From positions 1 through 41,482 of IMG/VR virus record IMGVR_UViG_3300035459_000040: a DNA stretch of 41,482 nt; one strand, 5' to 3'. Of the stretch, positions 2,212 through 38,216 are shown piece after piece (positions within the stretch are counted from its first letter, which is position 1; each line of letters starts with the position of its first letter). The notes under the pieces were generated by a model, which did not search any database, had not been told where the DNA came from, and saw only the letters and a list, made by a program, of their open reading frames with translations. This stretch comes from a virus. The translations under genes were made by a program, and so were the position numbers.

Positions 2212-2226
2212 CTGCGCCTTTCTTAA

Positions 2227-2247
2227 ACTATCCCGTCAGGGGATAGT
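2227..2247 (-). promoter_or_regulatory. Perfect 8-bp inverted repeat upstream of the methyltransferase
   Basis: ACTATCCC and GGGATAGT flank a 5-base loop, ending about 16 bases upstream of the methyltransferase ATG and leaving the ribosome site (AAAGG) free. No T-run follows the stem, so it is a poor terminator. It resembles an operator or a translation-control hairpin. The role is inferred. Confidence 0.4.
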
Positions 2248-2331
2248 ATTCTTTGACGGTGCTCAAAGTGACGAGGGCCGCCGGGCGGCCTATGGCCGTG
2301 CCGGCGGCCGCTATTGCGGGAGAGGGTGAAT

Positions 2332-4540: not shown

Positions 4541-4636
4541 TGTCTTCTTCGGATAAAATCGGGGCGACGCTTAGGCTTTCCCTGAACCATAAGTCGTTAG
4601 TTAGTTTGATGCACGCCGCCCTGACGTGAGAGAGGG

Positions 4637-7344: not shown

Positions 7345-8585
7345 AGTTGCACCATCCTTTCCACTTCGGCGGCCAAGCTATAAACTTCAAGCGGGATCTC
7401 CTTCTGGATGCTCGATCCCCACTGTTCTACCTTTTCTGAGAGCGTCTTGGCCTTCGTGATCTCACCCGAGCGGACCCGTTCCTCAGGGATGATGATCCGT
7501 TCGATCTGATAGCTGAACGCACCGGGGTATACATTCTTCACGTCTTCGTCAGTCACCAATGCCGACTGTTCCTTCGTCAAGTGGACCCGGATACGGAGCT
7601 CTGCGCCTTCCCAATCAACCGCCGTGCATGATCCGTCCACGTCCCCGACGAGAATCCAGGGCGCATCGTCATCGCTGGCATATTTGCACTCATGAAGCGA
7701 CAGCGGACGGGAAGGAATCTCGACTTGACAAACTTCCACCTCCCGATGGATGGTGTCAGGAACCTGGGTTCCGCCAAAGGTCTGAAAGGAACGCGGCGGC
7801 ACGCTCTTGATCGACACCACAACATTGTTGAAACTCTTCTTCTCGACCTCTCCGAAGTTGCAGTGATAGATCGATCCGGAGTACCACATCCGAGGTCCGA
7901 CTTCCTGCGCCTTGTGGATGTGCCCAAGAGCGTAGTAGTCAGCTCGAGCTAGAAGCAGATCCTGCTTGCTGATCATGATGTCCTGGCCGATCAGCGTCTG
8001 ACCACTGGAGAGTAGCGCACCGCTGACATTACAGTGCCCGACGAAGATCACGGGGCACTTGGCGTCCATTGATATTGCACCAAAGCCCGTGAAGATCTTC
8101 CGCAGTGCATCTTGAATGAGCAGATTCGATTCGTCGATCGAGACGTTCTCCTTGCCGGCGAGGAACCATGATTTCGTTGGATAAGGGAACACATGAATAA
8201 GCGCAATTGGAACTGTTGGTGCGTCTGTCGTGAAGATGCCGCTCGATGCAAGCCAAATAGCCTGAGCCCGACTGCTGATGAAAATCGGGAACTCGGTATC
8301 GAGGTCTCTGAAGATCTCGTAACTGCCCGCGGCGTCATGCGCCTCGTTGCCGTAGATCAGGATGACTGGAGAAATGTCGGCGAGCAACTTCATTGTTTCG
8401 AGAGCGGGAATGACTGCGCTTGAATTGGTGAGCATCTGTCGACGATTCCAGTAGTCGCCGGCGATGACGTGGAGATCGGGCTTGAGCTCGCGCAGTTGAT
8501 CGAATATGAAATCTGCCGATGCCTGGCATTTGTCGAGCTTGTCTGCTTCCCAGTGCCAGTCGGCTGAGTGAACAATTCGTAGCAT
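7341..8585 (-). CDS. sbcD: SbcD/Mre11-like metallophosphoesterase nuclease
   Basis: A 414-residue calcineurin-like nuclease. Metal-binding motifs run in order: D9-W-H11, GDYWNRR (D44), GNEAHD (N80, H83, D84), VGHCN and LGHIH. GDYWNRR has Asn where GDxxDR is usual, and GNEAHD replaces the usual GNHE, so the active site departs slightly from SbcD. Its partner is the SbcC-like ATPase; together they process DNA ends. I chose ATG 8585, which overlaps the preceding stop by one base (TGATG), rather than an upstream start inside the previous gene. Confidence 0.88.
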   Translation of the reverse strand: MLRIVHSADWHWEADKLDKCQASADFIFDQLRELKPDLHVIAGDYWNRRQMLTNSSAVIPALETMKLLADISPVILIYGNEAHDAAGSYEIFRDLDTEFPIFISSRAQAIWLASSGIFTTDAPTVPIALIHVFPYPTKSWFLAGKENVSIDESNLLIQDALRKIFTGFGAISMDAKCPVIFVGHCNVSGALLSSGQTLIGQDIMISKQDLLLARADYYALGHIHKAQEVGPRMWYSGSIYHCNFGEVEKKSFNNVVVSIKSVPPRSFQTFGGTQVPDTIHREVEVCQVEIPSRPLSLHECKYASDDDAPWILVGDVDGSCTAVDWEGAELRIRVHLTKEQSALVTDEDVKNVYPGAFSYQIERIIIPEERVRSGEITKAKTLSEKVEQWGSSIQKEIPLEVYSLAAEVERMVQL

Positions 8586-9622
8586 CACGACTGCCCTCCC
8601 TTCTCCCAAGGCAACGCAGTTTTTTTTTCGGGCGTCGGAAGGCCGTTGTAGTACCACAGGGCTTCGACCTGGCGGGCGATGGCGAGCTCGCCGTAGATTG
8701 TGGCCTTGGGGAATTCAGCCGACTTCTCAACGAGCAGGCGTTTCAATTCGTCCTCGCGCTCGTTGACTGACTTCTGCAGCCAGTGACGCTTGAATCCGTC
8801 CTCCGTCCGCAAGTCCGGCATGGTTTCCGCTGCTGCGCCAGAAGCCCTGTCGTCGACAACCTCCGCCATCACTCCAGGGACCAGGTACGGGTCGGCTTTG
8901 GGTTGTTGTTGCGACTGCGGCCCAAACACCTTGTCTACGATGCCGAGGGAATTGGCGACGAGCATCTTGCGGATCTCCGGATCATCCTTCGCAAGTTCGT
9001 TCAGATCCTCGACCACGCACGGAACCAGGAAGGGCTTGCGCAACTCGTCGATTGTGAAGTGACGCGGCAATTGCTCGAGTGCTTCGAAGATGGCCCTGAG
9101 CTTCGCATTCGACTCAGCCAGACCCTCAGCGAATCGCCTGCGTGTTTCAATCTGTTTCGGGTTTGCTGCGAGTTTGGCCTTATCCTCCTCATAGCGATAA
9201 TGCCCCGTCGTGACTCCCTTCTTCGTCGATCCGTTGATCTTCTTTACCTCCCATTCCACAACATGTTCGATGTAGATCACCCGTCCGTCAGCGCCCACAT
9301 CACGCTTTGCCGCGTAGGATTTTGTCCAGTTGATACCCGCGGCCCCCGCGATCTTGTTTGCCGCTTTGTAATGAAGCGTGTATTTTCCCGAACTATCGGG
9401 CGAATAGATGTCGATGCCGTTGCCCTTGTTGTCGACCGTCGCATCCAACTGAACGGCCTCTAGGGCGACCTTGTGCATCAGAGATGAGAAGTTCATCTGC
9501 GCCGGGACTAGTACGTTGAAGTGCTGGCGCATTCTGTTTAGCGCTTGATTCAGCTCCACCTGGCTCTTCACCGCGGGGAGCTGCTCAAACGTCGCTGGTA
9601 GGTTTGTTGCGGGCTGTGTCAT
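8585..9622 (-). CDS. Conserved phage protein upstream of the SbcCD-type pair
   Basis: A 345-residue protein preceded by an excellent ribosome site (GGAGGAG). The N-terminal part (PAVKSQVELNQALNRMRQHF) and a middle section with YTLHYKAANKIAGAAGINW resemble proteins I recall in recombination modules of many phages. The C-terminal third is charged and probably helical. Position directly before the nuclease and ATPase genes suggests a DNA-recombination role, perhaps strand annealing, but no motif proves it. I would not assign RecT, Erf or Sak from sequence alone. Confidence 0.6.
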   Translation of the reverse strand: MTQPATNLPATFEQLPAVKSQVELNQALNRMRQHFNVLVPAQMNFSSLMHKVALEAVQLDATVDNKGNGIDIYSPDSSGKYTLHYKAANKIAGAAGINWTKSYAAKRDVGADGRVIYIEHVVEWEVKKINGSTKKGVTTGHYRYEEDKAKLAANPKQIETRRRFAEGLAESNAKLRAIFEALEQLPRHFTIDELRKPFLVPCVVEDLNELAKDDPEIRKMLVANSLGIVDKVFGPQSQQQPKADPYLVPGVMAEVVDDRASGAAAETMPDLRTEDGFKRHWLQKSVNEREDELKRLLVEKSAEFPKATIYGELAIARQVEALWYYNGLPTPEKKTALPWEKGGQS

Positions 9623-24591: not shown

Positions 24592-25046
24592 TGCTTAACT
24601 CCGAAAATATTCCTGACACGCCTGATGAACTCTGGCATCTCAAGTTCAAAAGCGTAGAATAGGAAATGCTTCGCCCTGATGTTTACCCGTCGAATTCCCT
24701 TCCCTTTGAACTGGAGGGCGAAGTCCTCAAAGCCTTCAGGGACGTCGACGAGTGCCCCGGTTCCGAACTCTTGATATGGCGCATAGGGAGCAGCGGCCCA
24801 AACCCTGCCGCCATAACCGCTGGCGCTGATCTGAGAGAAGATGCGCGACCGTAGGAATCCTCCAAACTTACCTTTGCCGGCGACCGGAGCGCTACGCTTG
24901 GCAGCCGTCTCGATTAGATATGTCGTCTCGGCAACAGCCTCCCGAACCTGGCTCTGCCTCATTGCATCGAAAGCATCAATGTTCGCGATGCAGTGAGCAA
25001 CATCTGCGTCGCTGACACTGAAAGAGACGTAATTGTTAAGAGTCAT
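24588..25046 (-). CDS. Head-tail joining protein (HK97 gp10-like)
   Basis: 152 residues. The KRSAPVAGKGKFGGFLRSRI and YAPYQEFGTGALVDVPEGFE segments are hallmarks of the HK97 gp10 family (neck or tail component). It sits between the SPP1 gp16-like adaptor and the DUF3168-like tail completion protein, in the usual connector order, with ATGA overlaps on both sides. Confidence 0.82.
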   Translation of the reverse strand: MTLNNYVSFSVSDADVAHCIANIDAFDAMRQSQVREAVAETTYLIETAAKRSAPVAGKGKFGGFLRSRIFSQISASGYGGRVWAAAPYAPYQEFGTGALVDVPEGFEDFALQFKGKGIRRVNIRAKHFLFYAFELEMPEFIRRVRNIFGVKQ

Positions 25047-25453
25047 GGGTTCAATGGCTGATATTCAGAACAGATCAACTCCAGGTATTCCCCTCTGTCG
25101 ATGACGCCTTCGATCTTGTAGATATGTTCATAGTATGTGAATCGATACAACCGTGAGACTGAACCGGTTGCGGCGAGTTTCAGTGTTAGGTCACCGGGAT
25201 TGCGCATGACGATTCGCGTGTCGACAACCGTTCCCATCTGAGCGGCCTGCGCCACTTCGTATGCACTCAGCGGCGAAACTTTTGTCCAGAATGGCGAGAC
25301 GTCGTCCCAATGTTGCACGTTTCCACCGGCGCCGTCTGGCGTCAACAACTGCTCCTGCAGCATCGCTCGATGTCGCAGATCTGAAGTTCTATAACGCTTT
25401 GAGGTTTGGAGATGAGCAAAAGATTGCGCTTGCGGTGTTCCCGAAGACATCAT
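25043..25453 (-). CDS. Head-tail adaptor (SPP1 gp16-like)
   Basis: 136 residues with a DLRHRAMLQEQLLTPDGAGG start pattern and FWTKVSPLSAYEVAQAAQM, then YRFTYYEHIYKIEGVIDRGE. This is the head-closure adaptor family of SPP1 gp16, which seals the connector after packaging. Two ATGs in a row begin the frame; AGGTG precedes them. The gp6-like connector gene ends two bases upstream. Confidence 0.8.
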   Translation of the reverse strand: MMSSGTPQAQSFAHLQTSKRYRTSDLRHRAMLQEQLLTPDGAGGNVQHWDDVSPFWTKVSPLSAYEVAQAAQMGTVVDTRIVMRNPGDLTLKLAATGSVSRLYRFTYYEHIYKIEGVIDRGEYLELICSEYQPLNP

Positions 25454-25454
25454 A

Positions 25455-26072
25455 TCACCTGTAGTTTGTCAGACCGGAAATCAGTGCCGTCGCTGTCGGC
25501 GTCATCAGACCCGAGAGTGGAGCGCCGTCACTCGTCTTGAACTGTCCCTTGTTATCGTACGCGACAAGCACCATATCGAGGATTGCCGGCTTGATGCGTT
25601 CGTCTATGTGCTCCTCATCGTCACCTTCCCCTGCATTGAACGTCACCCTGAATGGGTTCTCCATCCTGGCGACGGTCGAGAAGACTCGGCCGATGTCGAT
25701 TCGGAACCGCTTCAGACCCGTTACCCGATAGCCCGACGAGCTGAGCGTGTGCCAGTTGTGCCCGTCGAATGACTCAACGGAAACAATCGACTGATGCGGC
25801 GCCCTTGGAAGGACCACGTAGTCTCTCATCCGATCCCACTGTGCGACGATTGTCTGGGTGATGAACGCCCGGTTCGTTGTCTGCTCGGCATCCTTCCTGC
25901 AGGCAGTGATGAGCCGTTCAATGAACGCATCGTCGTCAGTTCCATCGATCCTGCAGAAGGACTTCGCCTCTTCAAGCGTCACCGGTTCAACCGTGGGCTC
26001 AGTGATCAGTTCGATCTCAAGCCCTTCGCCCTCACGTTCGACTGACCGCCTGGTTGGATAGAGCGATTTCAT
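25455..26072 (-). CDS. Head-tail connector protein (HK97 gp6-like)
   Basis: 205 residues. EPVTLEEAKSFCRIDGTDDD followed by FIERLITACRKDAEQTTNRA is the signature of gp6/gp15-like connector proteins that stack beneath the portal. A C-terminal helical region (RIKPAILDMVLVAYDNKGQF) completes it. It follows the small 64-residue gene by an overlap. Confidence 0.87.
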   Translation of the reverse strand: MKSLYPTRRSVEREGEGLEIELITEPTVEPVTLEEAKSFCRIDGTDDDAFIERLITACRKDAEQTTNRAFITQTIVAQWDRMRDYVVLPRAPHQSIVSVESFDGHNWHTLSSSGYRVTGLKRFRIDIGRVFSTVARMENPFRVTFNAGEGDDEEHIDERIKPAILDMVLVAYDNKGQFKTSDGAPLSGLMTPTATALISGLTNYR

Positions 26073-26263
26073 TTCTCTTCCTTTCCCTGAACGATCTTCG
26101 TTCTCCGCAGCGCAGCGACGAGCGGCGAGCGGCCGGGAACAATCTCAGCCTTCCGCTCCCGGACATAGAGCCTCGCCTCGTCGTCCTGGACGTTGAACGT
26201 CTGTCCCCGATGGATCATCTGGCCGTTGTGATAGACGTCCTTCAATGCTTTCAATCGTTTCAT
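26069..26263 (-). CDS. Small basic protein after the glycan cassette
   Basis: 64 residues starting MKRLKALKDVYHNGQMIHRG and ending in a Lys/Arg-rich tail. Proteins like this (VYHNGxMIxRGQTF) are often encoded near the head-tail connector gene in phages. It overlaps the connector start by ATGA and is the first structural-module gene after the inserted sugar cassette. Function unknown. Confidence 0.55.
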   Translation of the reverse strand: MKRLKALKDVYHNGQMIHRGQTFNVQDDEARLYVRERKAEIVPGRSPLVAALRRTKIVQGKEEK

Positions 26264-26280
26264 GCAGATGTTGCCTTTCT

Positions 26281-26433
26281 CTAACGCACTTGACGGACCC
26301 AGCCGAACTTGACGAGAGCGATCGATTCGGCCATGTTGACGTGCAGGGCGTTGAATGTGTGGACCACGCCGCGGCGATATAGTTTGTGATGGAAGTAGAT
26401 GTCCCGGGTGAACGAAAAAGTTAGATTTGCCAT
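26281..26433 (-). CDS. Small 50-residue protein
   Basis: A frame that starts in a TAATG overlap with the GT29-like gene and runs MANLTFSFTRDIYFHHKLYR to VRQVR. The overlap and the clean frame support expression. The aromatic/basic pattern and size resemble small head-region proteins, and its neighbours are the 64-residue and connector genes. Unrecognised. Confidence 0.5.
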   Translation of the reverse strand: MANLTFSFTRDIYFHHKLYRRGVVHTFNALHVNMAESIALVKFGWVRQVR

Positions 26434-27239
26434 TAGACGAGCACCGCCCTTCTTTTTCGGATGAGAATATCAGCATCACGCTTGATGCGCAACATCGTAT
26501 CCCCAGCGACGATTGTCTCAGCTCCATGACGCTGTGTGACTGTGGCCTTGAGTTCGACGACCTTATCGTTGCCGATCCGCTGCAGTTCCTCGAGTTGCTT
26601 CTGCACTGCGAGCGTGCGGTCGAAGACGTGCTGCATCACAGCATCGATCTCAACCGGGATAGCGGAGGATGCGATCAACTCCTTCAGGTATGCCTTCGCC
26701 GATGTCTGGTCGTGTCCAGCCTGGCCGCCCTTGATGTTCGGGACCTTCGGATTGTAGCCGGCATAGTATCCGTCTTCGTAGAAACTGAATCCCGTCAGGT
26801 AAAGCGACTTGATCGGCAGTGAGAGCAGATGTGTTATTGCGACCACGCCGGCGTTAGGGGCCTTGCGGACGTGCAAACGCACACGCTGGACCACTGAGAA
26901 CGGCACGCACTCACAAGGGATGCGTCCCCGGTTGATTGCCTTAAACCGTGCGAACCGCGGCTCACCCTGATGATGCGTCGAAACGATGAAGCCGACATGC
27001 CCTACGAGGGGCGCGAATTCTTTCTCGTTCGCAGCCATCCCCACAGAGAGCAGGTGAAAGAGAATGTCACAGCGTTCGCCGATGTCCTCAACCATCGCCA
27101 GGGGGACCGGGAATCCCCGGTTGATCCTGGCAACGAGATCAAACCCGTCGATCTTCTCGCGTTGCTTCGTGCCGGCGAGGTATGCTCCCGGTGCAATCAG
27201 TGCAATCGACTTTCCTGTGACCAGATCAGCGAAGGTCAT
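26433..27239 (-). CDS. Sialyltransferase-like protein (GT29 type)
   Basis: 268 residues. The N-terminal GKSIALIAPGAYLAGT followed by KIDGFDLVARINRGFPV (30-45) matches the sialyl-motif L pattern (ID..D.V.R.N), which binds CMP-sialic acid. The middle PNAGVVAITHLLSLPIKSLY followed by TGFSFY matches motif S. GHDQTSAKAYLKEL resembles the region carrying the catalytic His. It would transfer sialic acid from CMP-sialic acid to a glycan acceptor. It is the last gene of the cassette with NeuA, NeuB and NanE. The acceptor is unknown. Start ATG overlaps the GT8 stop. Confidence 0.78.
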   Translation of the reverse strand: MTFADLVTGKSIALIAPGAYLAGTKQREKIDGFDLVARINRGFPVPLAMVEDIGERCDILFHLLSVGMAANEKEFAPLVGHVGFIVSTHHQGEPRFARFKAINRGRIPCECVPFSVVQRVRLHVRKAPNAGVVAITHLLSLPIKSLYLTGFSFYEDGYYAGYNPKVPNIKGGQAGHDQTSAKAYLKELIASSAIPVEIDAVMQHVFDRTLAVQKQLEELQRIGNDKVVELKATVTQRHGAETIVAGDTMLRIKRDADILIRKRRAVLV

Positions 27240-27970
27240 TGATAGCGCCTCCACAAACGATCAAGCTCTGCATAGCCCGGCTCTGAAGTCTGCCAGGGCT
27301 TCTTGCCAACGAAATGGACGAACTTCTTGTCAGCGACGGCGTTCCAGATCTGCCGGTGATGGACGAAGAGGCGTTTCAGGACTTCCCATTCGATCCCAAG
27401 CAGATGGACCTGATCGGCATGGCCGTTGGCATAGAAGAAGCCGTTTAAGATGGACTGATCAGCCAGGGGGAACTTGCCCGGGTACTCGAGGGCGAACTTC
27501 TGCAGCTCGTCATAGAGGCCCTCTGAAGGCTCGAAGACAAAAGACCCTCCGGAGAACATTGGCCGGCCGCAGACTGAATGGGGAAGTGAGATCCCGAAGA
27601 CTACCGTCGATGAGAAATGCTTGAACTGCTCACACGCTCGAATGTCGCCGACGCAGATGATGTCGCTATCGAGAAAGTATATCAATTTCTCGTTCGTCAG
27701 GTTGAAGAGCGTCAGCTTCTGCATTGATGCGACGAGCCGCTGCGCTCCCGGCATCTGATCGGGTCTGATCGTGAACTCGCCGAGCTCGCTGCGCCTGATT
27801 AGGTTCGTGACGTGCAGAGAGGCGAGAGCGTCAATCGATTTCCGCGAGAGTTCACCTTCGAAGAGAACAATCATCGCGAAGTCGTCGAGCCTGCTATTGA
27901 TGCGCAGCGACTTCACGAGTGCGATCGTGCCGGGCATGTAGTTCTCAGATGTGAGGGTCGCGAATGTCAC
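27236..27970 (-). CDS. Glycosyltransferase, GT8/glycogenin-like
   Basis: 244 residues of the GT-A fold. The N-terminal TFATLTSENYMPGTIALVKS and DSD motif (D101-x-D103, in IYFLDSDIIC) are the metal and nucleotide-sugar binding sites of GT8 enzymes, with GIEWEVLKR near the end. It would transfer a hexose from a UDP- or similar sugar. It probably builds the acceptor that the sialyltransferase completes. I chose GTG 27970, whose GTGA overlaps the methyltransferase stop. Confidence 0.8.
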   Translation of the reverse strand: MTFATLTSENYMPGTIALVKSLRINSRLDDFAMIVLFEGELSRKSIDALASLHVTNLIRRSELGEFTIRPDQMPGAQRLVASMQKLTLFNLTNEKLIYFLDSDIICVGDIRACEQFKHFSSTVVFGISLPHSVCGRPMFSGGSFVFEPSEGLYDELQKFALEYPGKFPLADQSILNGFFYANGHADQVHLLGIEWEVLKRLFVHHRQIWNAVADKKFVHFVGKKPWQTSEPGYAELDRLWRRYQ

Positions 27971-28599
27971 TTCTTCACCCAATGCCAGGAGATGTTTGTT
28001 CCCGTCTCGCTCGTGAGTTCAACCTTCCAGATCCCGTTGGCGAAGGCGAATGCGTCGACGGCTTCCTTGACCTGATAGCGCTTCGAGCCAACCCACTTAT
28101 TCCCATGCCGGATCCGCTTGGCGGCGCTTCTGCCCTTTGTGCCGAGCAGATAGTCGTGACCGGAGAAGAATCCTCCGTGTTTCAGTTTTGGATACCAGAT
28201 CGCCAAATCGATCGACACCGCCTCAAACGAGTGATCGCCGTCGATGTAGATAAAGTCCAAACTTTCATTAGCGAACTGCGCAGCGGCCCGAAAGCTTGAC
28301 AATCGTAGCATCTCCGCACGCTCGCCAAATCGCTCAAGCCGCCGCTTGCAGTCCTCGAACACCTTGTCCCAGTCGGCCTGTGATGCCTTCGAAGCGTTGA
28401 AGTCTTTGCCATCGACAAGACCGAGTCCCGGCCCGTAACCAGGCAGGACCGCCCAGGGATCGACGAGATAGAGTTTCGTTCCCTTCCAGGTGTCAAGGAT
28501 CGTCTCTGAGAAAGCGCCTTCGAACACCCCAACCTCGACGCCAACTCCGAGTAATCCCAAGTCGTTTAAGTACCCGCCGATCTCAGACCTCGACTTCAT
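27967..28599 (-). CDS. SAM-dependent methyltransferase (class I, Methyltransf_24-like)
   Basis: 210 residues. The SAM-binding GxGxG equivalent is VGVEVGVFEGAFSETIL (near residue 20), and YIDGDHSFEAVSIDLAIWYP supplies the acidic motif, followed by LKHGGFFSGHDY. This architecture is common in sugar-modification clusters, where such enzymes methylate sugars or lipids. It probably modifies the sialic acid or an acceptor sugar in this cassette. The ATG 28599 has GGAGGACTC upstream. The substrate is inferred from context only. Confidence 0.74.
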   Translation of the reverse strand: MKSRSEIGGYLNDLGLLGVGVEVGVFEGAFSETILDTWKGTKLYLVDPWAVLPGYGPGLGLVDGKDFNASKASQADWDKVFEDCKRRLERFGERAEMLRLSSFRAAAQFANESLDFIYIDGDHSFEAVSIDLAIWYPKLKHGGFFSGHDYLLGTKGRSAAKRIRHGNKWVGSKRYQVKEAVDAFAFANGIWKVELTSETGTNISWHWVKK

Positions 28600-29284
28600 G
28601 AGTCCTCCTGGCAATCATCAGTTGTCGCATACACCGCAACTCCTCAAGATCTTCCTGCGTGTCCAGCTCAACCAAGGACTGGAACGGCATACCGTAGGAG
28701 CCAATGCTTCCGTTGAGCAGTTTACCTGTCCGCTTGAAGTCTTCAGGCTTGAAGATGTAGAAAGCACCGTTTTCCACGAAGAACCTTCGCACCTTCGAAA
28801 GCCCTGGCCGTGTCTCAGTATCGAAGTCCGCACTTGCAATATCGCTGGGATAACCCTTGACGCGACAGTATTGATAGCGGGCAAGCCAGACGCCTGAGAC
28901 GAGTGAATCAAGCTTGAACGCCCTGAGATCCCTTATCGCCATCGCCAGGTCGAATGCAGTCGTGAAGATGTTGGTTGCCTGGATCAGGATGACGAGATCA
29001 AAGTTTGTCTGATCGACGAACTCTTGAACGACGTCCTCAGTCCGGGCGTCGTCTGTGCACGAGTGTTCACTTCGGTTGAAGAAGACAACCGTGCGATCGC
29101 TCAGGTGATCCCGGATCGCCGGATCGTTTGTCGCCACAAACGTGCAATCCCGTTTGATGTCAGGGCAACACAGCGCAGCGTTGACCGCCACATCTGCCGG
29201 CGTGGTTCCGCAGATGTCGAGGAGGTGCTTTCCCGGCAGGCGTTTCGATCCTGCGCGCATCGGTATCAAGGCGGCAATGGTCAT
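28583..29284 (-). CDS. neuA: CMP-sialic acid synthetase (acylneuraminate cytidylyltransferase)
   Basis: 233 residues. The CTP-binding signature IPMRAGSKRLPGKHLLDICG lies at the N-terminus, and ILIQATNIFTT matches the conserved loop. DARTEDVVQEF holds further conserved residues. NeuA activates sialic acid: CTP + sialic acid to CMP-sialic acid. It is the step between NeuB and the sialyltransferase. The relation is to the NeuA/KdsB/PseF superfamily, so the sugar could be a related nonulosonic acid such as legionaminic or pseudaminic acid. ATGA-coupled to NeuB. Confidence 0.82.
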   Translation of the reverse strand: MTIAALIPMRAGSKRLPGKHLLDICGTTPADVAVNAALCCPDIKRDCTFVATNDPAIRDHLSDRTVVFFNRSEHSCTDDARTEDVVQEFVDQTNFDLVILIQATNIFTTAFDLAMAIRDLRAFKLDSLVSGVWLARYQYCRVKGYPSDIASADFDTETRPGLSKVRRFFVENGAFYIFKPEDFKRTGKLLNGSIGSYGMPFQSLVELDTQEDLEELRCMRQLMIARRTHEVEV

Positions 29285-30084
29285 AAGCCTTTGAATTTCT
29301 TCCTATTCGCTATCTCACATTCGACAAGTCCCGATTCCGGTTTGTACTCCATCGCATCCGCAGCGTCGGCTAAGTACTTCACAACCTTGCGGAGTCCGTC
29401 CGGTTCGAGGCTTGCCGCATGGTCTGTTCCCTTCTGCGTCCGGTCCAGCGTGAAGTGACGCTCGATATACTCTGCCCCGAGCGCGTACGCGACAAGGTCA
29501 AGAGCGACGCCGGGGTGATGATTCGAAAAGCCTATGTGACAATGCGTCTCTGATTTCAGCATTGAGATTTCGAGCAGACACGCCTCGGTTGACCTGATTG
29601 GATAGTTGGTTGTGGTATGGTAGAGGACAATGCGATCAGAAAACCTTCTGGCGTGATTTACAATGATTTCTCGTTCAATGTTCGTCAGCATCCCAAGAGA
29701 GATGTGGACGGGCAGCGACGCCTCTCTGATTGCAATCCCAATCAAATCCTTTCTCTGGTTGACGGCACTTCCAAACTTGATGTATGACGGGCCAAGTGAC
29801 AGAATCTCACTCAGACTCTTTTCGTCGAACACGCTGCATCCGTAGTCGACACCGAGCGATGCGCACAGGCCCCGCAGTTCGCCGTGTTGATCGATCGAGA
29901 ACTCAAGAGCCTTTCGATGCTCATAATATGCCGGATCCGTTCGATACTGCTCGATGTCCCGCTTCTGAAACTTCACAGCCTGAACTCCACAGAAGTCCAC
30001 AGCAATGCGGATCATCTTCTTCGCAGTCTCCAGGTCGCCCTGATGATTGCAACCGCACTCGCTAATTATGTAGGGTCGTTTCAT
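29281..30084 (-). CDS. neuB: Sialic acid synthase
   Basis: 267 residues, the catalytic TIM barrel of NeuB/NnaB-like synthases without the C-terminal SAF (antifreeze-like) domain. Marks are YIISECGCNHQGDLETAKKM, VKFQKRDIEQY, HISLGMLTN, GFSNHHPG, then IERHFTLDRTQKGTDHAASL. The family condenses phosphoenolpyruvate with N-acetylmannosamine (or its 6-phosphate or a related sugar) to a nonulosonic acid. A missing SAF domain is unusual; SAF helps bind substrate in the partner monomer. It overlaps NanE by 23 bases. Confidence 0.85.
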   Translation of the reverse strand: MKRPYIISECGCNHQGDLETAKKMIRIAVDFCGVQAVKFQKRDIEQYRTDPAYYEHRKALEFSIDQHGELRGLCASLGVDYGCSVFDEKSLSEILSLGPSYIKFGSAVNQRKDLIGIAIREASLPVHISLGMLTNIEREIIVNHARRFSDRIVLYHTTTNYPIRSTEACLLEISMLKSETHCHIGFSNHHPGVALDLVAYALGAEYIERHFTLDRTQKGTDHAASLEPDGLRKVVKYLADAADAMEYKPESGLVECEIANRKKFKGL

Positions 30085-30718
30085 GCTCGAATTGTGAAAC
30101 GAATCGTTGTATGACGACGTCGGGTCTCGTTACCGCAGTCCCGATGCAAACGGAAAAGGCACCCGCCCTGATTGCCTCTTCGATGTCGGCGGCCGTTCCG
30201 TAGCGACCTTCGGCGATCAACGGTGTAGACAGAACCTTGGCCAACTCCTCGATCGCGGCAATGTCCGGATCCAGTGAGAACCGGTCATGCGTCTCGGGGG
30301 TGTAGCCAAACAATGTGGTCGCTATCGCTGCCACGCCGAACGACTCAGCAATCTTCGATGTCTCAAATGCGTCGGCTTCAAATATGATCTTCGAACGATG
30401 GTAATCGTCGGCCGATTCAACCACGGCGAGTGATTCGGTTGCCGCATAATCCCCACCGGCAGCAAAGATCCGGTCGAGTTGTTCTTTTGTCACAGTGATC
30501 GGGAACCTGGGGACTCGATTAAGCCTCATCTTCACGATGCCGATCACGGGGATCGATACGACTTCCTTAACGGCTTCAATTCGCTCGATGCCTTCGATCT
30601 TGACCGCAACCGCTCCACAAGCCTCAGCCGTCTTGGCGTAGTCGCAGATGCGCAGGACGCTATCAAACACAGATCCTTTACTTGGTTGGATCGAGATGAT
30701 TATCCCTGGCTTGAACAC
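30062..30718 (-). CDS. nanE: N-acylglucosamine-6-phosphate 2-epimerase
   Basis: 218 residues, a TIM-barrel epimerase with the conserved ACGAVAVKIEG, IPVIGIVKM and AIATTLFGYTPET segments, then PLIAEGRYGTAADIEEAIRA, as in NanE. It interconverts ManNAc-6-P and GlcNAc-6-P. In catabolism it works toward GlcNAc-6-P. In a cassette with NeuB it probably runs the other way, supplying ManNAc-6-P from the host's GlcNAc-6-P. Start is GTG with GGAGGAA just upstream. It is the first gene of the sugar cassette, after a hairpin following the capsid gene. Confidence 0.85.
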   Translation of the reverse strand: MFKPGIIISIQPSKGSVFDSVLRICDYAKTAEACGAVAVKIEGIERIEAVKEVVSIPVIGIVKMRLNRVPRFPITVTKEQLDRIFAAGGDYAATESLAVVESADDYHRSKIIFEADAFETSKIAESFGVAAIATTLFGYTPETHDRFSLDPDIAAIEELAKVLSTPLIAEGRYGTAADIEEAIRAGAFSVCIGTAVTRPDVVIQRFVSQFEHETTLHN

Positions 30719-30731
30719 TCTTCCTCCGATT

Positions 30732-30769
30732 GATAAGGGGGAGGGCGCATCTTCCGACGCGCCCTTATC
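30732..30769 (-). terminator. Hairpin between the capsid and glycan-cassette genes
   Basis: An inverted repeat with a 7-bp GC-rich stem (AGGGCGC at 30742-30748 with GCGCCCT at 30759-30765), extended outward by GATAA/TTATC around a G bulge. It is not followed by a T-run on the minus strand, so it is more likely a partial terminator, a transcript-stability hairpin or an RNase site that lowers expression downstream of the abundant capsid gene. Confidence 0.5.
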
Positions 30770-30803
30770 CTATCCGCGTGTTCCCCAGATCCCCCTTCTG
30801 ATG

Positions 30804-32075
30804 TTAGCTTGCTGACGGGCTTGAAGGCACGCCGTAGACGAATGCGGCCGGCCGGAAGATCGGAAGCATAATCCGCTCTTCTGCCCTGATCGCAATCATG
30901 TTCCGGGTGAAGAAGTCTTCATGCTGTTCTGCAATCTGCACGTTGGCCTCTTCCCGATCGTACAGCGTGGCGCCCATTCCGAAGGCTCCGCAGAGAGCGT
31001 TGCCCTGGATGATTGATTCCGACTGAACGACAGGCAGACCCCAGATGCGTGAGCCGAGCATCGTGTTCGGATCGCCGATGATATAGCGCCCCACTTTATC
31101 CTTCTCCAGTTCGACCTCAACCCAATCCAGCGGATTGGCGACGAAGCCTGTGGCAGGGAACCGGGCCGCAAGAACCTGGGCGATCATTCGACGCAGTCCA
31201 TCGATGCCTGTGTCTCCCGGTTGTGGGTTGTAGACCTGAGCCAGGAGCGTGATGCCTTCGAGGTTCGGGGCAATGCCACTTCCATAAAGAACCTGCAGTT
31301 CCTCTTCGAGCAGGAGCGAGTAAAGCAACTGCGTGTCGATGAAGCCGCGCAGCACAGGAGCGTCGGCAAGGATCTGTTTCGAGGCCGGCAGCCAGGTTGC
31401 GATCGTGGAAGCAACAGCCTGTTCCTCCTTGAATCGCATGTCAGCCCTCGGCTTCGGATCGCCTTCAGCAACGACGTTCGCATTGCCGTTCAACTGGCCG
31501 CTCGATCCAGACTCGGATCCGAACATCAGCGAACGGACATATTGCAGGACCGGCGTTGAGATCGGTGTAACAGTCAGGATGTCCCGAAGCCGCAACTGTT
31601 GGTTCGGCACGGGCTGGATGATACCCGGAACGCGAAACGGGATAACGAGGTCGCCCGCACTACCGGGAGTTCCAAGAACTTCCTTGCGGAAGCTCTTGAC
31701 ACTGATACTCATCGGCCGCACGCTTTGAATCGATTTACCCGTAAGAGCCTTGATCTCGTCGTTCTCGATGACGAGTTGCCCTGCGGATTCTGGTTTTTCC
31801 CCGACTCCACTGGCCAACCCCGCAGCGTTGAACTTCACTTCGAGTTCGTCGATGCGCTTCTGCATTTCCTTCTTCATCGCCTCACGGCCATCGTCAGCGA
31901 GCTTGCCAAAGTCCTTCAGCCTGGTCTCGATCTCCGCCTTGAGAGCGGCAACACCGGGACCGGCTTTCTTCACCTCTTTGTCCAGTTCGTCCAGCTTCTC
32001 CTCGATACCCTTGAACGCCTTGGACTGCTTCTCGACAAGTTCTTTGATCTCCGTGTCGTCTTCGACTTTCATCAT
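30804..32075 (-). CDS. Major capsid protein (HK97 fold) with N-terminal scaffold domain
   Basis: 423 residues. The first about 110 residues are a coiled coil (EKLDELDKEVKKAGPGVAAL and after) typical of the HK97 delta/scaffold domain, cut off by the prohead protease. The body begins near residue 120 with SVKSFRKEVLGTPGSAGDLV, contains NLEGITLLAQ and IIGDPNTMLGSRIWGLPVV, and ends with FRPAAFVYG. It overlaps the protease gene by ATGA. It is the most abundant virion protein. Confidence 0.92.
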   Translation of the reverse strand: MMKVEDDTEIKELVEKQSKAFKGIEEKLDELDKEVKKAGPGVAALKAEIETRLKDFGKLADDGREAMKKEMQKRIDELEVKFNAAGLASGVGEKPESAGQLVIENDEIKALTGKSIQSVRPMSISVKSFRKEVLGTPGSAGDLVIPFRVPGIIQPVPNQQLRLRDILTVTPISTPVLQYVRSLMFGSESGSSGQLNGNANVVAEGDPKPRADMRFKEEQAVASTIATWLPASKQILADAPVLRGFIDTQLLYSLLLEEELQVLYGSGIAPNLEGITLLAQVYNPQPGDTGIDGLRRMIAQVLAARFPATGFVANPLDWVEVELEKDKVGRYIIGDPNTMLGSRIWGLPVVQSESIIQGNALCGAFGMGATLYDREEANVQIAEQHEDFFTRNMIAIRAEERIMLPIFRPAAFVYGVPSSPSAS

Positions 32076-32869
32076 TGTCGTAGCCTTTCGTTGAGTGATT
32101 CCATATCGTGAATTTGCTTCCTGAGCATCGATGCGATCTCGGACCGCGAAGCCTTTTGCGATGCCTCTTCGATTGCGGCTATGCGCGGATCGTCGAGGAC
32201 GAGGCTTTTAGCGAAATCCATTATGCCCTGTTGAAACTGTCTGATCCAGATCTCCAATGTCATCGCTGTATCATCCGTTACCACGTCGGTGAGTGCGCGA
32301 TTGATGTTGTCGATCTGATCGAATGCTTTTGACCAATCCTTGACTGACTTGAACCCGAGGAACGGCGTCTGATCGTTCGCTCCCCAGGTGACTGCAGAGC
32401 CATCCCACAACCTGAGCTCGAGCAAACGCGTTGGCTCATCCTGCGTTCGCTCCTGCTTGACCACGTCATAACCGATGGAGTGCTCGTTGATCACGCCGTC
32501 CTGGTAGAGCACCATCGTGTCCTTGCCATAGGATGTCGGACTGATCTTCGATTCGAAGTAGAGCCCCGTCTTGTCTTCCTTGAGAACCGTTGGCCGGCCG
32601 AGCAGCAACTCCGGCCTGTGCTGACGAAGGAATGCAACCCGGTTTGATCCTGAGGGCCCTCGCTCTCTGATGGATCGCCTGAACGCTCCCGGCACGACGA
32701 TCTCGTTGTCGGAGTCGACGTTGTTGAAGGCCGAGAAGTAGCCGGTGATGATCCCGTTCTTCACGTCGACGTCTTTGACCATCGAGGCGAACTCGCAGTG
32801 TTGATGCGTTGCCATGCCTTTGATTCGGTAGAGGTCAGGCAAAGGTTCGATACCGTTGTTCTTCTTCAT
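32072..32869 (-). CDS. HK97-type prohead protease
   Basis: 265 residues of the S78-like (herpesvirus-assemblin fold) protease. Catalytic residues are H84 (in AFLRQHRPELLL) and S131 (in NEHSIGYDVV). Conserved GYFSAFNNVDSDNEIVVPGA near the N-terminus matches the family. It removes the capsid scaffold domain during maturation. The C-terminal third is helical. The gene starts four bases after the MuF-intein stop and is followed by the capsid gene. Confidence 0.92.
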   Translation of the reverse strand: MKKNNGIEPLPDLYRIKGMATHQHCEFASMVKDVDVKNGIITGYFSAFNNVDSDNEIVVPGAFRRSIRERGPSGSNRVAFLRQHRPELLLGRPTVLKEDKTGLYFESKISPTSYGKDTMVLYQDGVINEHSIGYDVVKQERTQDEPTRLLELRLWDGSAVTWGANDQTPFLGFKSVKDWSKAFDQIDNINRALTDVVTDDTAMTLEIWIRQFQQGIMDFAKSLVLDDPRIAAIEEASQKASRSEIASMLRKQIHDMESLNERLRQ

Positions 32870-32873
32870 CGCT

Positions 32874-34517
32874 TCAACCCTTTCTCAAGTAACCGATCGT
32901 GCAACGACAGTTGGAAATGACGATGCCATTTGCTATATTCAAGCCGTAGACAGACTGGAGGTCATACACATGCCCAGAAAACTTGAAATAGCGAACATCA
33001 ACAACCTCATCGGTCTCTATCGCAAGGGAATGTCGATGAATCAACTTTCGAAGAGAGCCGGTATCGCGCGACCCACGTTGATGCGACATTTCGCCGAGAG
33101 CGGCGTCGTCACGAGAACTCAGTCCCAATCGGAGGCTTTGAAATGGTCCCGACTTAAGAGGAACAGGATCGCTGTTGAACGACAATGCGCGGCCGCATGG
33201 GATGCTCGTCGTGGACAAAAAGACCCTATGGAGCGGAGGATACGGAGAGCCAGAACTATGTATCATCGACTCCTCAGGGTTGGCAAGTTGGAAGGCGAGC
33301 TCGCCAGCATTCTGCGACTCCGCGGGGTTGCCGTTGAGCAGCAATTCCCCGTGAGGAACTACAACCTCGACATCGCCATTCCCAAAGATCGCGTCGCCGT
33401 GGAGATCGAAACCTCGAACCACTACGACACGAACGGGGTGCGAAAGAGAGAGCGACTCGAATATCTTCTCCACCGCGGTTGGAGCGTCCTTATCGTCTTT
33501 ACACCTTGGCCCAGCAAGGGCGTTCATCCGAACATTCCCTCGCTTGCAAACAAGTTCATCGCCTTCCGCGAGGCCGCCCGCAGGAACAAGTCCTCGCGTG
33601 GTCATTATGGGGTGATTGAGAGTAACGGAGAGCCGACGACCGCCGCGTGTTGCGATCTCGATGGCCGGGCCAGAATAGACGGATTTTAATACTGCGTTGA
33701 AATCGCCCTCCATCGTTGCCCCGGGCAAGAGACAGTTGATGACGTTCCCCGCGCTCCCGCTTGGATCGCCAGGGAACTGCATCGGCTCAACGCCGGCGGG
33801 ACGCATAGGGACATCGAACAAATCGTCCAGCTCCGCCTCCTTCGAATCCATGTGCCAGTGATCGAACTCGTCCGTCGGCTTAAGTCCCCTGGTTGCATCG
33901 TCCCTTGTCGAGATCCATTGCTTCCTGACGTCCGCGCCAGAACTCTTCGCCCCCATTAACGAACCCCAGTTAGAGGCGCTCAGAGTTTCCGTATGCGCTA
34001 TGACCATCGCTCGCTTGGCGATGATCTGCTCAAGGATGACGTTCGAGTTGATCGCAGCGGCAATCTCCCTCAGCGACTTGCCTTCTCCAGTCATCTCATC
34101 CACGATCGACATGATGCGCTTGCGCGTCTCGTCGTTAATCTGTGTGATTTTCGCTCCGCCTTGCGTCGAGAGATAATCTGACACTCGTCGTTCCCAACTT
34201 GCAGTCTGGCCGGCAGTGGCTTTGATCGAGTCCAGAACCTTGGCAGCGAAGAGCGGGGCAATCATCATATACAGCCGATGATAGACCGCCGTGATGAGCG
34301 GCTTCGAACTCTCGATCGAGCGGGTGATGTTGTCGTGCAGCTCGCCGGAATAGGCCGTGTGATCAATCGCTTCAGCGGCAAGGTGAGTCTGCGATCTCAG
34401 GGCCGCTGCGATCTTGATGTTCGCCCATGAGGTATAGCGGGACCGCTCTGCGTGTGCGCCAAGCCAGGCCATGCGCTTCTGCTCTTCGGATCGGTTCTCT
34501 AAGGGCGACCAGTTCAA
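32874..34517 (-). CDS. MuF-like head morphogenesis protein containing an intein
   Basis: 547 residues. Residues 1-261 are the Mu gpF-like minor head protein (VIAHTETLSASNWGSLMGAK near 172, HWHMDSKEAELDDLFD, then FPGDPSGSAGNVIN). Residues 262-536 are an intein, and 537-547 (CRCTIGYLRKG) complete the MuF motif NCRC. Splicing should give a 272-residue extein. MuF proteins sit inside the procapsid near the portal and take part in head assembly. The gene overlaps the portal stop by ATGA. Without splicing the conserved CRC end would be displaced from its fold, so splicing is probably essential for the head. Confidence 0.88.
   Translation of the reverse strand: MNWSPLENRSEEQKRMAWLGAHAERSRYTSWANIKIAAALRSQTHLAAEAIDHTAYSGELHDNITRSIESSKPLITAVYHRLYMMIAPLFAAKVLDSIKATAGQTASWERRVSDYLSTQGGAKITQINDETRKRIMSIVDEMTGEGKSLREIAAAINSNVILEQIIAKRAMVIAHTETLSASNWGSLMGAKSSGADVRKQWISTRDDATRGLKPTDEFDHWHMDSKEAELDDLFDVPMRPAGVEPMQFPGDPSGSAGNVINCLLPGATMEGDFNAVLKSVYSGPAIEIATRGGRRLSVTLNHPIMTTRGLVPAGGLAEGDELVCKRGNVRMNALAGPRCKDDKDAPTAVEKIFESLSLSHPVRVVVVRGFDLHGDAIFGNGDVEVVVPHGELLLNGNPAESQNAGELAFQLANPEESMIHSSGSPYPPLHRVFLSTTSIPCGRALSFNSDPVPLKSGPFQSLRLGLSSRDDAALGEMSHQRGSRDTGSLRKLIHRHSLAIETDEVVDVRYFKFSGHVYDLQSVYGLNIANGIVISNCRCTIGYLRKG
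32911..32939 (+). promoter_or_regulatory. Candidate promoter of the antisense endonuclease gene
   Basis: Plus-strand TTGGAA (32911-32916), a 17-base spacer and TATATT (32934-32939) precede the endonuclease ATG by 31 bases, with GGAGG between. Both boxes lie within the intein; the -35 begins at its second base from the C-terminal border. The -10 is the complement of the intein's Asn-Ile codons and the -35 overlaps its final Ser-Asn codons. The score is good for sigma-70 but not proved. Confidence 0.55.
32970..33689 (+). CDS. Vsr-like (EDxHD-type) homing endonuclease, antisense within the intein
   Basis: 239 residues on the strand opposite the intein. An N-terminal HTH (residues 12-45: LIGLYRKGMSMNQLSKRAGI...) and a basic linker lead to a Vsr-like nuclease core: LEGELASILRLRGVAVEQQF (E110, Q124), YNLDIAIP (D134), VAVEIETSNHY (E145, E147, H151), then RLEYLLHRGWSVLIVF. 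This is the pattern of the EDxHD homing endonucleases (Vsr-like; type example I-Bth0305I). Ribosome site GGAGG is at 32957-32961, 8 bases from ATG 32970. The stop is at 33687-33689, inside the intein. Its cut site is probably the intein-less MuF gene. Every codon is the exact reverse complement of an intein codon. Confidence 0.82.
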   Translation: MPRKLEIANINNLIGLYRKGMSMNQLSKRAGIARPTLMRHFAESGVVTRTQSQSEALKWSRLKRNRIAVERQCAAAWDARRGQKDPMERRIRRARTMYHRLLRVGKLEGELASILRLRGVAVEQQFPVRNYNLDIAIPKDRVAVEIETSNHYDTNGVRKRERLEYLLHRGWSVLIVFTPWPSKGVHPNIPSLANKFIAFREAARRNKSSRGHYGVIESNGEPTTAACCDLDGRARIDGF

Positions 34518-37150: not shown

Positions 37151-37715
37151 TGACGATGACAACCTTTACGATTTGAGGCACGAGCGGCGCCCCATCTTTG
37201 CCTGTGACTTCATGCTTCTCGGCGAACATCTCTCTCTGCTTCCCCAGAAGTTCAAGTGGACCCTTCTTATCGTGCAGTTTGAATTTCACGCCGCCTTCTC
37301 GGGTGATCGTGATCTGCGATACCGCTGCGAGATGATCGCGTGAGAGTTTGCTCCAGTCTTTGAGCATCACATCGCCGACGGGAATTTCAGTTGGAGGAGT
37401 TGCCGATGGATTTGCAGTTGACGGCGCGGGAGCTTTGAACTCCACGAAATCACCGATGTTGGAAAACGCACACTTCGCCAACTCTCGCATGATCGTGCCC
37501 TGAGTGATGAAGAGTTCTTTCTGGAGGGCGAGCTGACGCTTGCGGATATAACCTTCAATTTTAGGCTTCCTTAGCATCTTGAAAGCCTGAACGCCGGCGA
37601 CGTTTGCGTTCTTCACCTTGTAACCGGCACGGACATAGGCGGCTGAACCGTTGTAGTCGGTCAGGTATTCGTCGGCGAATCGCTGCTCTTTCGGTTTCAG
37701 TCCGGTGCTTTTCAA
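37122..37715 (-). CDS. terS: Terminase small subunit
   Basis: 197 residues of the Terminase_2 family. The N-terminus, KEQRFADEYLTDYNGSAAYV followed by RAGY, is the HTH that binds pac/cos DNA, and the middle has KRQLALQKELFITQGTIMRE. The C-terminal half (FKLHDKKGPLELLGKQREMF) is conserved. The start is a TTG overlapping the HNH-AP2 stop, which supports coupling to the gene before it; a downstream ATG is not obvious. Confidence 0.88.
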   Translation of the reverse strand: MKSTGLKPKEQRFADEYLTDYNGSAAYVRAGYKVKNANVAGVQAFKMLRKPKIEGYIRKRQLALQKELFITQGTIMRELAKCAFSNIGDFVEFKAPAPSTANPSATPPTEIPVGDVMLKDWSKLSRDHLAAVSQITITREGGVKFKLHDKKGPLELLGKQREMFAEKHEVTGKDGAPLVPQIVKVVIVNEHRSPDEK

Positions 37716-38200
37716 GTATTAACCGAGAAATTCAGCCGTGCAAATTCACCGAATTGCTCTCTCGCTTTTGCATCGTATTTTCTTGCTGCGTCAATCGGTG
37801 ATTTGAAATATCCAGCATGAATGGTCTTCCCATTAACTGAGAGATATGCTCGAAAACCATGCTTTGAGCGCGAAACACCGCGATATCCCGACGTGTTGTT
37901 CCGGTGCACCTTGCTGTTCCGCATATTTTCAGCATGACTGCAGCGCCGAAGATTCATTGTGCGGGAATTGTTGAGGCCATTACCGTCGCGATGGTCGATT
38001 ATCTCGCCCTTGGCAGCATTCATGATATATCGGTGCATGAACTCCAATGTCTGCTTCCCTCGTGCCGCTGGAATGACTCGAACAGCATAGACGAGATTTT
38101 CAGTCACACGGAGGGCATACCAATCGAATAGCGAGACACGCTCGTAGTCTTCGTCATCGACAAATGCAATTTCACCTGTGGTCAATGGAATCGTCTTCAT
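37712..38200 (-). CDS. HNH-AP2 homing-type endonuclease
   Basis: 162 residues from ATG 38200 (GTG 38206 is possible). HNH residues appear in LEFMHRYIMNA, IIDHRDGNGLNN and NMRNSKVH. They are followed by an AP2-like DNA-binding segment SGYRGVSRSKHGFRAYLSVN with GYFKSPIDAARKYD. Free-standing HNH-AP2 enzymes in phages are selfish elements that cut alleles lacking them. It lies directly upstream of the small terminase and right after a terminator, a typical intergenic home. It could also serve cos cleavage with terminase. Confidence 0.87.
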   Translation of the reverse strand: MKTIPLTTGEIAFVDDEDYERVSLFDWYALRVTENLVYAVRVIPAARGKQTLEFMHRYIMNAAKGEIIDHRDGNGLNNSRTMNLRRCSHAENMRNSKVHRNNTSGYRGVSRSKHGFRAYLSVNGKTIHAGYFKSPIDAARKYDAKAREQFGEFARLNFSVNT

Positions 38201-38216
38201 GTTCACCTATAAATAC

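Follow-up and report, generated by a model that had tools for sequence, protein, structure and literature searches.

A predicted nonulosonic acid pathway encoded among the head genes of a tailed phage

Organization of the block

Why should a phage carry genes for the synthesis and transfer of an acidic sugar among the genes that build its head, and where might such a sugar go? The question is raised by a viral stretch of 41,482 nucleotides (IMG/VR record IMGVR_UViG_3300035459_000040; hereafter the window), in which six overlapping minus-strand ORFs are flanked by the major capsid gene on one side and the head-tail connector gene on the other (Table 1). An initial annotation had described this arrangement, a block on one strand between capsid and connector genes. 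The first gene of the block starts 85 nt beyond the end of the capsid gene, and the five junctions within the block are overlaps of 4-23 nt if GT8 and GT29 are taken with their longest starts, the GT8 and GT29 overlaps being 4 nt each with shorter starts. Alignments indicate probable starts slightly inside the longest ORFs for the methyltransferase (28599), GT8 (27970) and GT29 (27239). The G+C content of the six genes is 52-57%, and that of the protease, capsid and connector genes is 54-57%.

Table 1. Genes of the block and its flanks, with positions in the window
Feature	Position	Strand	Evidence and remarks
Major capsid protein	30804..32075	-	PF05065 (Phage_capsid) 6e-37; phrog_10 1e-60; flank upstream of block
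NanE-type N-acetylmannosamine-6-phosphate 2-epimerase	30062..30718	-	PF04131 7e-31; PDB NanE 5e-24
NeuB-type nonulosonate synthase, catalytic domain only	29281..30084	-	PF03102 2e-50; alignment to 1xuu, 6ncs, 1vli
NeuA-type CMP-nonulosonate cytidylyltransferase	28583..29284	-	PF02348 (CTP_transf_3) 2e-19; PDB PpNeuA 9t4z 3e-15
SAM-dependent methyltransferase (Methyltransf_24)	27967..28599	-	PF13578 3e-15; TylF weak, under cut-off
GT8 glycosyltransferase	27236..27970	-	PF01501 (Glyco_transf_8) 5e-12
GT29 sialyltransferase-family protein with conserved C-terminal extension	26433..27239	-	Intermediates, PDB profile search, fold; without direct Pfam match
Small protein between block and connector	26069..26263	-	DUF7210 weak, under cut-off
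Head-tail connector (gp6-like)	25455..26072	-	PF05135 (Phage_connect_1) 7e-10; phrog_442 1e-20; flank downstream

Synthesis and activation of a nonulosonic acid

Pfam matches (Table 1) bear out the identities first assigned to the NanE, NeuB, NeuA, methyltransferase and GT8 proteins. NanE, an enzyme whose products are 6-phosphate sugars, scores 107 bits against PF04131 (cut-off 27) and 142 bits against NF002231, under the cut-off of 189; K63 and E170, which we take to be the catalytic Lys and Glu, are invariant across nine aligned phage NanE proteins. NeuB, at 267 aa, ends before the SAF (antifreeze-like) domain that forms the C-terminal part of NeuB proteins, and the same domain is absent from all 11 aligned phage NeuB proteins. 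Eight residues (E9, K38, K103, S106, H189, E208, H210 and D221), presumably the metal and PEP residues of the catalytic barrel, are invariant in these 11 proteins and align with identical residues of 1xuu; together with the PF03102 match they identify the catalytic barrel. The Glu that lies two positions past the Ser of 1xuu aligned with S106 is replaced by Val. NeuA scores 70.7 bits against CTP_transf_3 (cut-off 22.6) and reaches no NCBIfam cut-off, and NeuB scores 159 bits against the N-acetylneuraminate synthase equivalog TIGR03569, under its cut-off of 399.65. Because none of the block proteins reaches the curated NCBIfam cut-offs for NeuB, PseI and PseF, the term sialic acid, as first applied to this locus, holds as a family-level label and does not extend to the exact sugar.

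The route had also been called complete, which overstates it. The NanE, NeuB, NeuA and transferase families are indeed present; however, a search of the window for the phosphatase of a nonulosonic acid (NulO)-9-phosphate came out negative, as profiles from four phage proteins gave no HAD/KdsC match at E 1 in ORFs of at least 50 aa, nor did they in stretches L001-L007. Co-occurrence of NanE with a NeuB that lacks the SAF domain suggests that the block uses the 9-phosphate route, in which a host phosphatase could fill the missing step.

The transferases

The nearest solved chains to the GT8 protein are glycogenins (glycogenin-2, 4.5e-7), with a Skp1 galactosyltransferase at 2e-5 (PDB). The GT29-like call, the weakest of the original identities, was upheld by cellular intermediates, a profile search of the PDB and fold comparison. 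The protein itself has no direct match in Pfam (E 0.1), PHROGs, NCBIfam or a single-sequence search of the PDB; nevertheless, a profile of the phage copies detects two cellular proteins (L080, 2e-24; L097, 9e-7) that match PF00777 (Glyco_transf_29) above its cut-off (1e-6 and 3e-11, respectively). A further profile, which takes in three cellular relatives, detects ST3Gal-I in the PDB at 1e-9, and 8 of its 11 PDB matches at E 1 are sialyltransferases, so that homology to GT29 is established through intermediates over the regions of sialylmotifs L and S. H181, invariant in three phage copies, is by eye a candidate for the catalytic His of sialylmotif VS, but an alignment with cellular proteins puts H181 elsewhere or in an ambiguous position.

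Five AlphaFold models from a six-row alignment gave mean pLDDT values of 64, 60, 47, 34 and 34; the best (pTM 0.65), in which only 114 of 273 residues reach a pLDDT of at least 70, was used for searches. A three-row run was poor (pLDDT 34) and was not used. The first 31 Foldseek matches of the model are all sialyltransferases. Its alignment to ST6Gal1 (Z 12.7, rmsd 3.8, 185 aligned residues) and to the GT42 enzyme Cst-I (Z 11.5, 194 aligned) both give high Z values, and thus the fold alone cannot tell GT29 from GT42; the model also bears a resemblance to Maf (5mu5, Z 7.4), at a value that may reflect just a common arrangement.

The possibility that the C-terminal extension of the GT29 protein shares a domain with the neighbouring small phage protein was rejected. 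The window pair scores 47, a value reached by 1 of 2000 shuffles, whereas the corresponding pairs of L002 and L003 are at chance (888 and 829 of 2000), cross pairs fall at 553 and 16 of 2000, and two other window proteins score equally high against the extension piece of L002. The hhalign probabilities are 1.7 and 0.6, and a Pfam search of the two pieces found no family.

Conservation in related phages

The same block is found in further viral contigs: L001-L004 have the identical six-gene order between capsid and connector. Since L001, L002 and L004 are 100% identical across the block and L003 is distinct, they represent two further versions, in the same place and order and at 43-73% identity. 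In L003 the block is interrupted by HNH-like and DNA-methylase-like ORFs (named by reading), yet the order is still kept. Five profile-supported families, and a sixth supported by intermediates and fold, thus keep their order across related contigs, and chance or mis-annotation was rejected on this ground. Between L002 and L003, dN/dS is 0.168 for NanE, 0.087 for NeuB, 0.052 for NeuA, 0.119 for the methyltransferase, 0.135 for GT8 and 0.101 for GT29, in comparison with 0.132 for the protease, 0.038 for the connector and 0.170 for the major tail protein. Judged by these ratios the block is under purifying selection, and from the kept order together with values of 0.05-0.17 per gene we conclude that it is selected.

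Distribution of the pathway genes

In a second lineage of phages, whose capsid protein belongs to a different family, NanE, NeuB and NeuA genes and HAD-like ORFs come after the minor-capsid gene, and a gene matching a head-tail connector profile follows the set in 6 of 7 stretches, namely those that reach far enough. The HAD-like ORFs were counted with profiles built from four such ORFs; one (L023) is a clear HAD, and the HAD assignment of the small ORFs is weak (that of L024 has Pfam matches under cut-off only, and that of L123 has no NCBIfam match). The transferases of this lineage have weak MptE-like matches, under cut-off, to PF01973, a family that we take to cover part of the Maf flagellin transferases.

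That phages seldom carry the whole route fits a collection of 50,697 phage records, in which three match the window NeuB (E 1e-5), 11 others match NanE (E 1e-3) and the GT29 protein has no match at all (E 0.01). In IMG/VR, however, 36 loci encode relatives of the window NeuB. Several of the 11 NanE-matching records look like bacterial fragments. Of 37 viral stretches with NeuB, 15 also have NanE (12 of 32 once duplicates are removed), compared with 0 of 80 cellular ones; as it is absent from 22 of the 37 within the DNA examined, it is no rule for phage NeuB. This coupling, seen in viral stretches and in none of the cellular ones sampled, may be a sign that phages wire the pathway in a way of their own.

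The terminase has phage matches below 60% identity only, from many different hosts, and megablast of the head region against phages returned nothing. NeuB relatives occur in 99 plasmid records, all below 60% identity; none turned up in genome_contigs when these were scanned with the single NeuB sequence. Several cellular relatives of NeuB and GT29 lie in loci that read as surface-polysaccharide clusters, and flippase, polymerase or exporter families are present near cellular NeuB relatives among the best 25 of 87 neighbour families (tallied from 83 of 86 ORFs picked from every second cellular locus, after exclusion of two that contain unknown residues and of one that begins where its stretch ends). 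In a quick tree, which omits rows that are mostly duplicates (L001, L004-L008, L012-L017, L025, L108 and L115), the virus group needs nine changes, at least five of them forced by starred branches; with these counts and long branches meeting in the tree, the number of acquisitions is unsure.

Proposed pathway and its acceptor

The block very probably constitutes a phage-owned NulO pathway, which would be expressed together with the late head genes. NanE would convert host GlcNAc-6-P to ManNAc-6-P, from which, by condensation with PEP, the SAF-less NeuB would form a NulO-9-phosphate. Once a host phosphatase had taken off the phosphate, NeuA would form CMP-NulO; in the cytoplasm, the GT8 enzyme would start the sugar and the GT29 enzyme add NulO onto it, with the methyltransferase perhaps capping or modifying the product. 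Our favoured reading, to which, pathway and acceptor taken together, we give an even chance, is that the acceptor belongs to the virion and is in all likelihood a protein of the head or tail, yielding a glycosylated, negatively charged particle. The Ser/Thr content of the capsid C-terminus (four of the final 12 residues in the window versus 1-3 in 12 other stretches listed) was set aside as a hint to the acceptor, phages with and without the block being not clearly different.

The enzymes would act as naturally on LPS or capsule, because several cellular NeuB and GT29 relatives lie in apparent surface-polysaccharide loci, some adjoining polysaccharide flippase, export and glycosyltransferase genes. 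GT8 enzymes are well known in LPS core synthesis, and the GT8 and GT29 enzymes of the block might extend the LPS core or another lipid-linked glycan of the infected cell with NulO, blocking adsorption of competitors or loss of progeny to debris. Prophages of Acinetobacter baumannii offer a precedent in that they modify capsular nonulosonic acids (summarised in PMC12053666). We nevertheless consider modification of the cell surface rather unlikely: in two lineages that differ in capsid family the genes lie between structural ones, their late co-transcription would presumably take effect just before lysis, and no flippase, polymerase, ligase or exporter family is among the Pfam matches of the six proteins.

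It is improbable that the genes serve sugar or PEP metabolism or merely hitch-hike with the head module, with no glycan being selected. The phosphatase step not found in the window would fit such passengers, but the whole block of six, with its three transferase genes, stays in one piece and under purifying selection, and similar gene sets recur in another lineage. Transfer of the sugar to phage DNA or another cytoplasmic target is more improbable still, even though phage glycosyltransferases do modify DNA (PMC12619734): no DNA-base hypermodification gene was noticed near the block in the part of the window genes scanned, the block sits among structural rather than replication genes, and human GT29 enzymes transfer to sugars (as summarised in PMC10225777).

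Decoration of the particles, if real, would mean that phages make nine-carbon acidic sugars to put on their shells. It would bear on how virions escape adhesion to debris, binding by competitors or recognition, and would offer sialyltransferase-family enzymes of phage origin; what glycosylates phage heads, and why, becomes testable. More tentatively, and at somewhat less than an even chance, two or more lineages of tailed phages, each with its own capsid family, may have brought a NulO pathway into their head modules and may cover their virions with a sialic-acid-like sugar drawn through NanE from a central host metabolite; such a coat, independent of host-made NulO, would be the bacterial-virus counterpart of a sialylated envelope.

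Relation to known systems

Maf systems glycosylate flagellin with NulO in the cytoplasm, and we know of no nonulosonate route in the virion glycosylation of mycobacteriophages. In Caulobacter, NeuB and FlmG accomplish cytoplasmic NulO O-glycosylation of flagellin, a structural protein (summarised in PMC7591256). Like these two flagellar systems, whose acceptor is a self-assembling structural protein, the window would combine NeuB-dependent NulO synthesis with a cytoplasmic transferase; unlike them, its block is phage-encoded, includes NanE, GT29 and GT8 and lies in a head operon, and its acceptor is a predicted one. Mycobacteriophages, with glycans reported on capsid and tail tube (Freeman 2023, as cited in PMC12619734), likewise encode their own glycosylation, which acts on late proteins, the acceptor in the window being a proposed one. 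The epaA-epaB genes of an Acinetobacter baumannii prophage also act on a nonulosonic acid, changing one made by the host for its capsule, and the abstract mentions neither de novo synthesis nor a position among head genes (PMC12053666). That virions can be glycosylated and that prophages can modify nonulosonic acids is thus already known, and what we judge to be new is a de novo nonulosonate route within a head operon; the titles and abstract openings of the literature matches listed mention no NanE-NeuB-NeuA set among the head genes of a phage, which is weak evidence of absence.

The cellular SAF-less NeuB locus of L080 (Verrucomicrobia UBA5540) shares the NeuB, NeuA and GT29 families with the block; it differs in its polysaccharide-type neighbours, with a flippase-like gene and no NanE in the stretch, and in a phosphatase-like HAD domain fused to NeuA. 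This or similar cellular loci are a plausible source of the block.

The cassette and its setting
The nonulosonic acid (NulO; sialic-acid-type sugar) cassette of the window is real, selected and recurrent. On the minus strand it is preceded by genes for the terminase small and large subunits, portal, head-morphogenesis protein, protease and capsid, and followed by genes for a small protein, head-tail connector, head closure, neck, tail terminator and major tail protein. Adjacent block genes share 4-23 nt, going by the ORF ends adopted, and resemble the flanking genes in base composition. Promoter and terminator sites in 25000-33500 (3 and 5) are no commoner than in shuffled sequences (4.1 and 7.4 expected); thus, a transcript of its own is not indicated for the block.

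Coordinates of the block and of other features in the window and related viral contigs
Stretch	Position	Strand	Feature
Window	1039-8657	minus	SbcC/SbcD-like pair, ParB-like protein, DNA methyltransferase
Window	26433-30718	minus	Block, in order: NanE, NeuB, NeuA, methyltransferase, GT8, GT29
Window	32874-34517	minus	Head-morphogenesis protein split by intein/Hint-like stretch (about residues 263-536; PF14890 1e-4, under cut-off); short C-terminal piece beyond
Window	37712-38206	minus	ORF with HNH_3 and weak AP2-like match, immediately upstream of terminase small-subunit gene
L003	5886-6383		HNH/AP2-like ORF between NanE and NeuB (named by reading the sequence)
L003	9415-10053		DNA-methylase-like ORF between GT8 and GT29 (named by reading the sequence)
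L018	2749-10004		Different NulO-type cluster with NeuB, MptE-like protein and cytidylyltransferase-like, aminotransferase-like and dehydrogenase-like ORFs (ORFs named by reading)
L020	7971-16739		Different NulO-type cluster with NeuB and the same three kinds of ORF (named by reading)

The enzyme assignments of the initial annotation are upheld: five of the six genes have Pfam matches far over cut-off, and GT29 is supported through cellular intermediates, a PDB profile and fold. The GT29 gene of the window has no direct match in any library searched and none in phage records. A profile of the phage copies reaches a protein of a Verrucomicrobia cellular NeuA-NeuB locus (2e-24) and a protein adjoining NeuB in a proteobacterium (9e-7); PF00777 is present in both and in a third, weakly matched cellular protein, and with these three added, eight of the 11 PDB chains matched by the profile are vertebrate sialyltransferases (best 1e-9). 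In a Foldseek search with an AlphaFold model (six-row alignment; pLDDT 64, pTM 0.65), places 1-31 are all sialyltransferases; the model matches ST6Gal1 with Z 12.7 over 185 residues, outside which falls a conserved extension at the C-terminus, some 50 residues long, and GT42 enzymes come next (Z 11.5). A GT29 homologue and NeuA share a stretch at nine of the 11 loci L134-L144 (L135-L139 and L141-L144), with NeuB beside them in L142 and L144; phage sialyltransferase-family genes are thus not confined to the window group, the phages with the window-type block.

Conservation and selection
Two other versions of the block were found, both with the same gene order and location as in the window: one is 100% identical across the block in viral contigs L001, L002 and L004, and in the portion carried by the short contig L014; the other is that of L003. 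Alignment identity to the window is 59% for NanE, 72-73% for NeuB, 44-45% for NeuA, 49-50% for the methyltransferase, 43% for GT8 and 64-65% for GT29. The L003 block contains two inserted ORFs, yet all six cassette genes are still open; the cassette tolerates insertions. Between L002 and L003, dN/dS is 0.05-0.17 in each cassette gene, values also covered by three structural genes used for comparison (0.04-0.17), indicating that each of the six enzymes is maintained; window versus L002 was left out, its synonymous sites being mostly at or near saturation. An intein/Hint-like stretch also occurs in the head-morphogenesis gene of L003, and L001, L002 and L004 are without one.

Recurrence in viral structural modules
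Searching with 11 aligned phage NeuB proteins gave 36 viral loci, which with the window make 37 viral stretches; the cellular set is the best 80 of at least 583 NeuB relatives. NanE is present in 15 of the 37 viral stretches versus none of these best 80 cellular ones (Fisher p 3e-9), a viral count inflated by duplicates that becomes 12 of 32 when L001, L004, L025 (97% identical to L026), L108 and L115 are dropped; flanks reached their full length of about 8 kb in 52 of the 80 cellular stretches and 21 of the 36 viral loci. The NanE profile, built on six phage proteins, found no NanE in 22 of the 37 viral stretches, and it reaches the non-seed NanE of L110 (8e-35), a canonical one (2e-63), and of L113 (2e-34), so cellular NanE should have shown up. 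All 15 NanE-bearing stretches also carry NeuA: five belong to the window group, seven to a second group (L022-L026, L121, L123), and the others are L110, L113 and L112, whose NanE is weak and 6.3 kb away from NeuB.

In the second group, the set lies downstream of a minor-capsid gene, and a connector-profile gene comes after it in six of seven cases, the L026 stretch ending before that point; PHROGs matches in L024 are minor head (2e-40), connector (9e-4), the next connector-type gene (3e-7) and tape measure (3e-28). The capsid protein of this group is in a different Pfam family from that of the window, Phage_capsid_4. HAD/KdsC-type ORFs, the small ones among them with a weak HAD assignment, accompany eight of the 15 NanE sets (all seven of the second group and L113; none in the window group); Methyltransf_24-type genes occur in five of the seven, and transferases of the second group have weak matches, MptE-like and GT4. 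NeuB-NanE-NeuA lies a short way upstream of a terminase gene in L110, and NanE a short way downstream of one in L113. A quick tree separates the two groups, and its well-supported branches force at least five virus/cell changes, a number made unsure by long branches; accordingly, phage structural modules seem to have acquired sets of this kind at least twice. The identical viral stretches L107 and L108 place NeuB-NeuA amid a long series of glycosyltransferase-like ORFs (by reading).

Predicted chemistry of the route
NanE substrates are 6-phosphates, and standard bacterial NeuB uses the free sugar; the window NeuB, unlike the standard enzyme, is without the C-terminal antifreeze-like (SAF) domain. 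NeuA is near 63 of the best 80 of at least 583 cellular NeuB relatives; 44 of the 63 NeuA ORFs listed from cellular stretches have 380-422 aa, and the one examined is a fusion with a KdsC/KDN-9-phosphatase-like domain that scores below those cut-offs. The NanE substrates, the SAF-less NeuB and this fusion together point to a putative route via NulO-9-phosphate. No phosphatase for NulO-9-phosphate was found within the window, and a host phosphatase would supply the dephosphorylation; the route that had been called complete thus stands in its enzymes and is one step short. The sugar (Neu5Ac, KDN or another) is not readable from sequence; no equivalog cut-off was reached.

Proposed acceptor of the putative glycan
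The nearest solved relatives of GT8 are glycogenins and Skp1 galactosyltransferase, whose acceptors are protein-linked and cytosolic; since LPS enzymes share the GT8 family, this likeness is no more than a hint of a protein-linked acceptor. Together with the position in the head operon, and with Pfam giving no membrane partner for any of the six block genes, in contrast to the neighbours of cellular relatives, it favours as acceptor a protein that is assembled and glycosylated in the cytoplasm. Caulobacter flagellin would be a parallel case (excerpt of PMC7591256), and such an acceptor agrees with the glycans reported on mycobacteriophage capsid and tail tube (work cited in an excerpt of PMC12619734).

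The putative glycan might instead be destined for the host surface: some cellular relatives sit in a polysaccharide context, with many glycosyltransferases and families of polysaccharide flippases and exporters nearby; prophages tend to alter surface nonulosonic acids (excerpt of PMC12053666); and no acceptor signature was found in the capsid proteins, which counts against a virion protein. The head-operon position, the membrane-partner result and the GT8 relatives nevertheless lean towards a protein acceptor, making the host surface the less favoured target; between the two purposes proposed in the initial annotation, modification of the virion is favoured.
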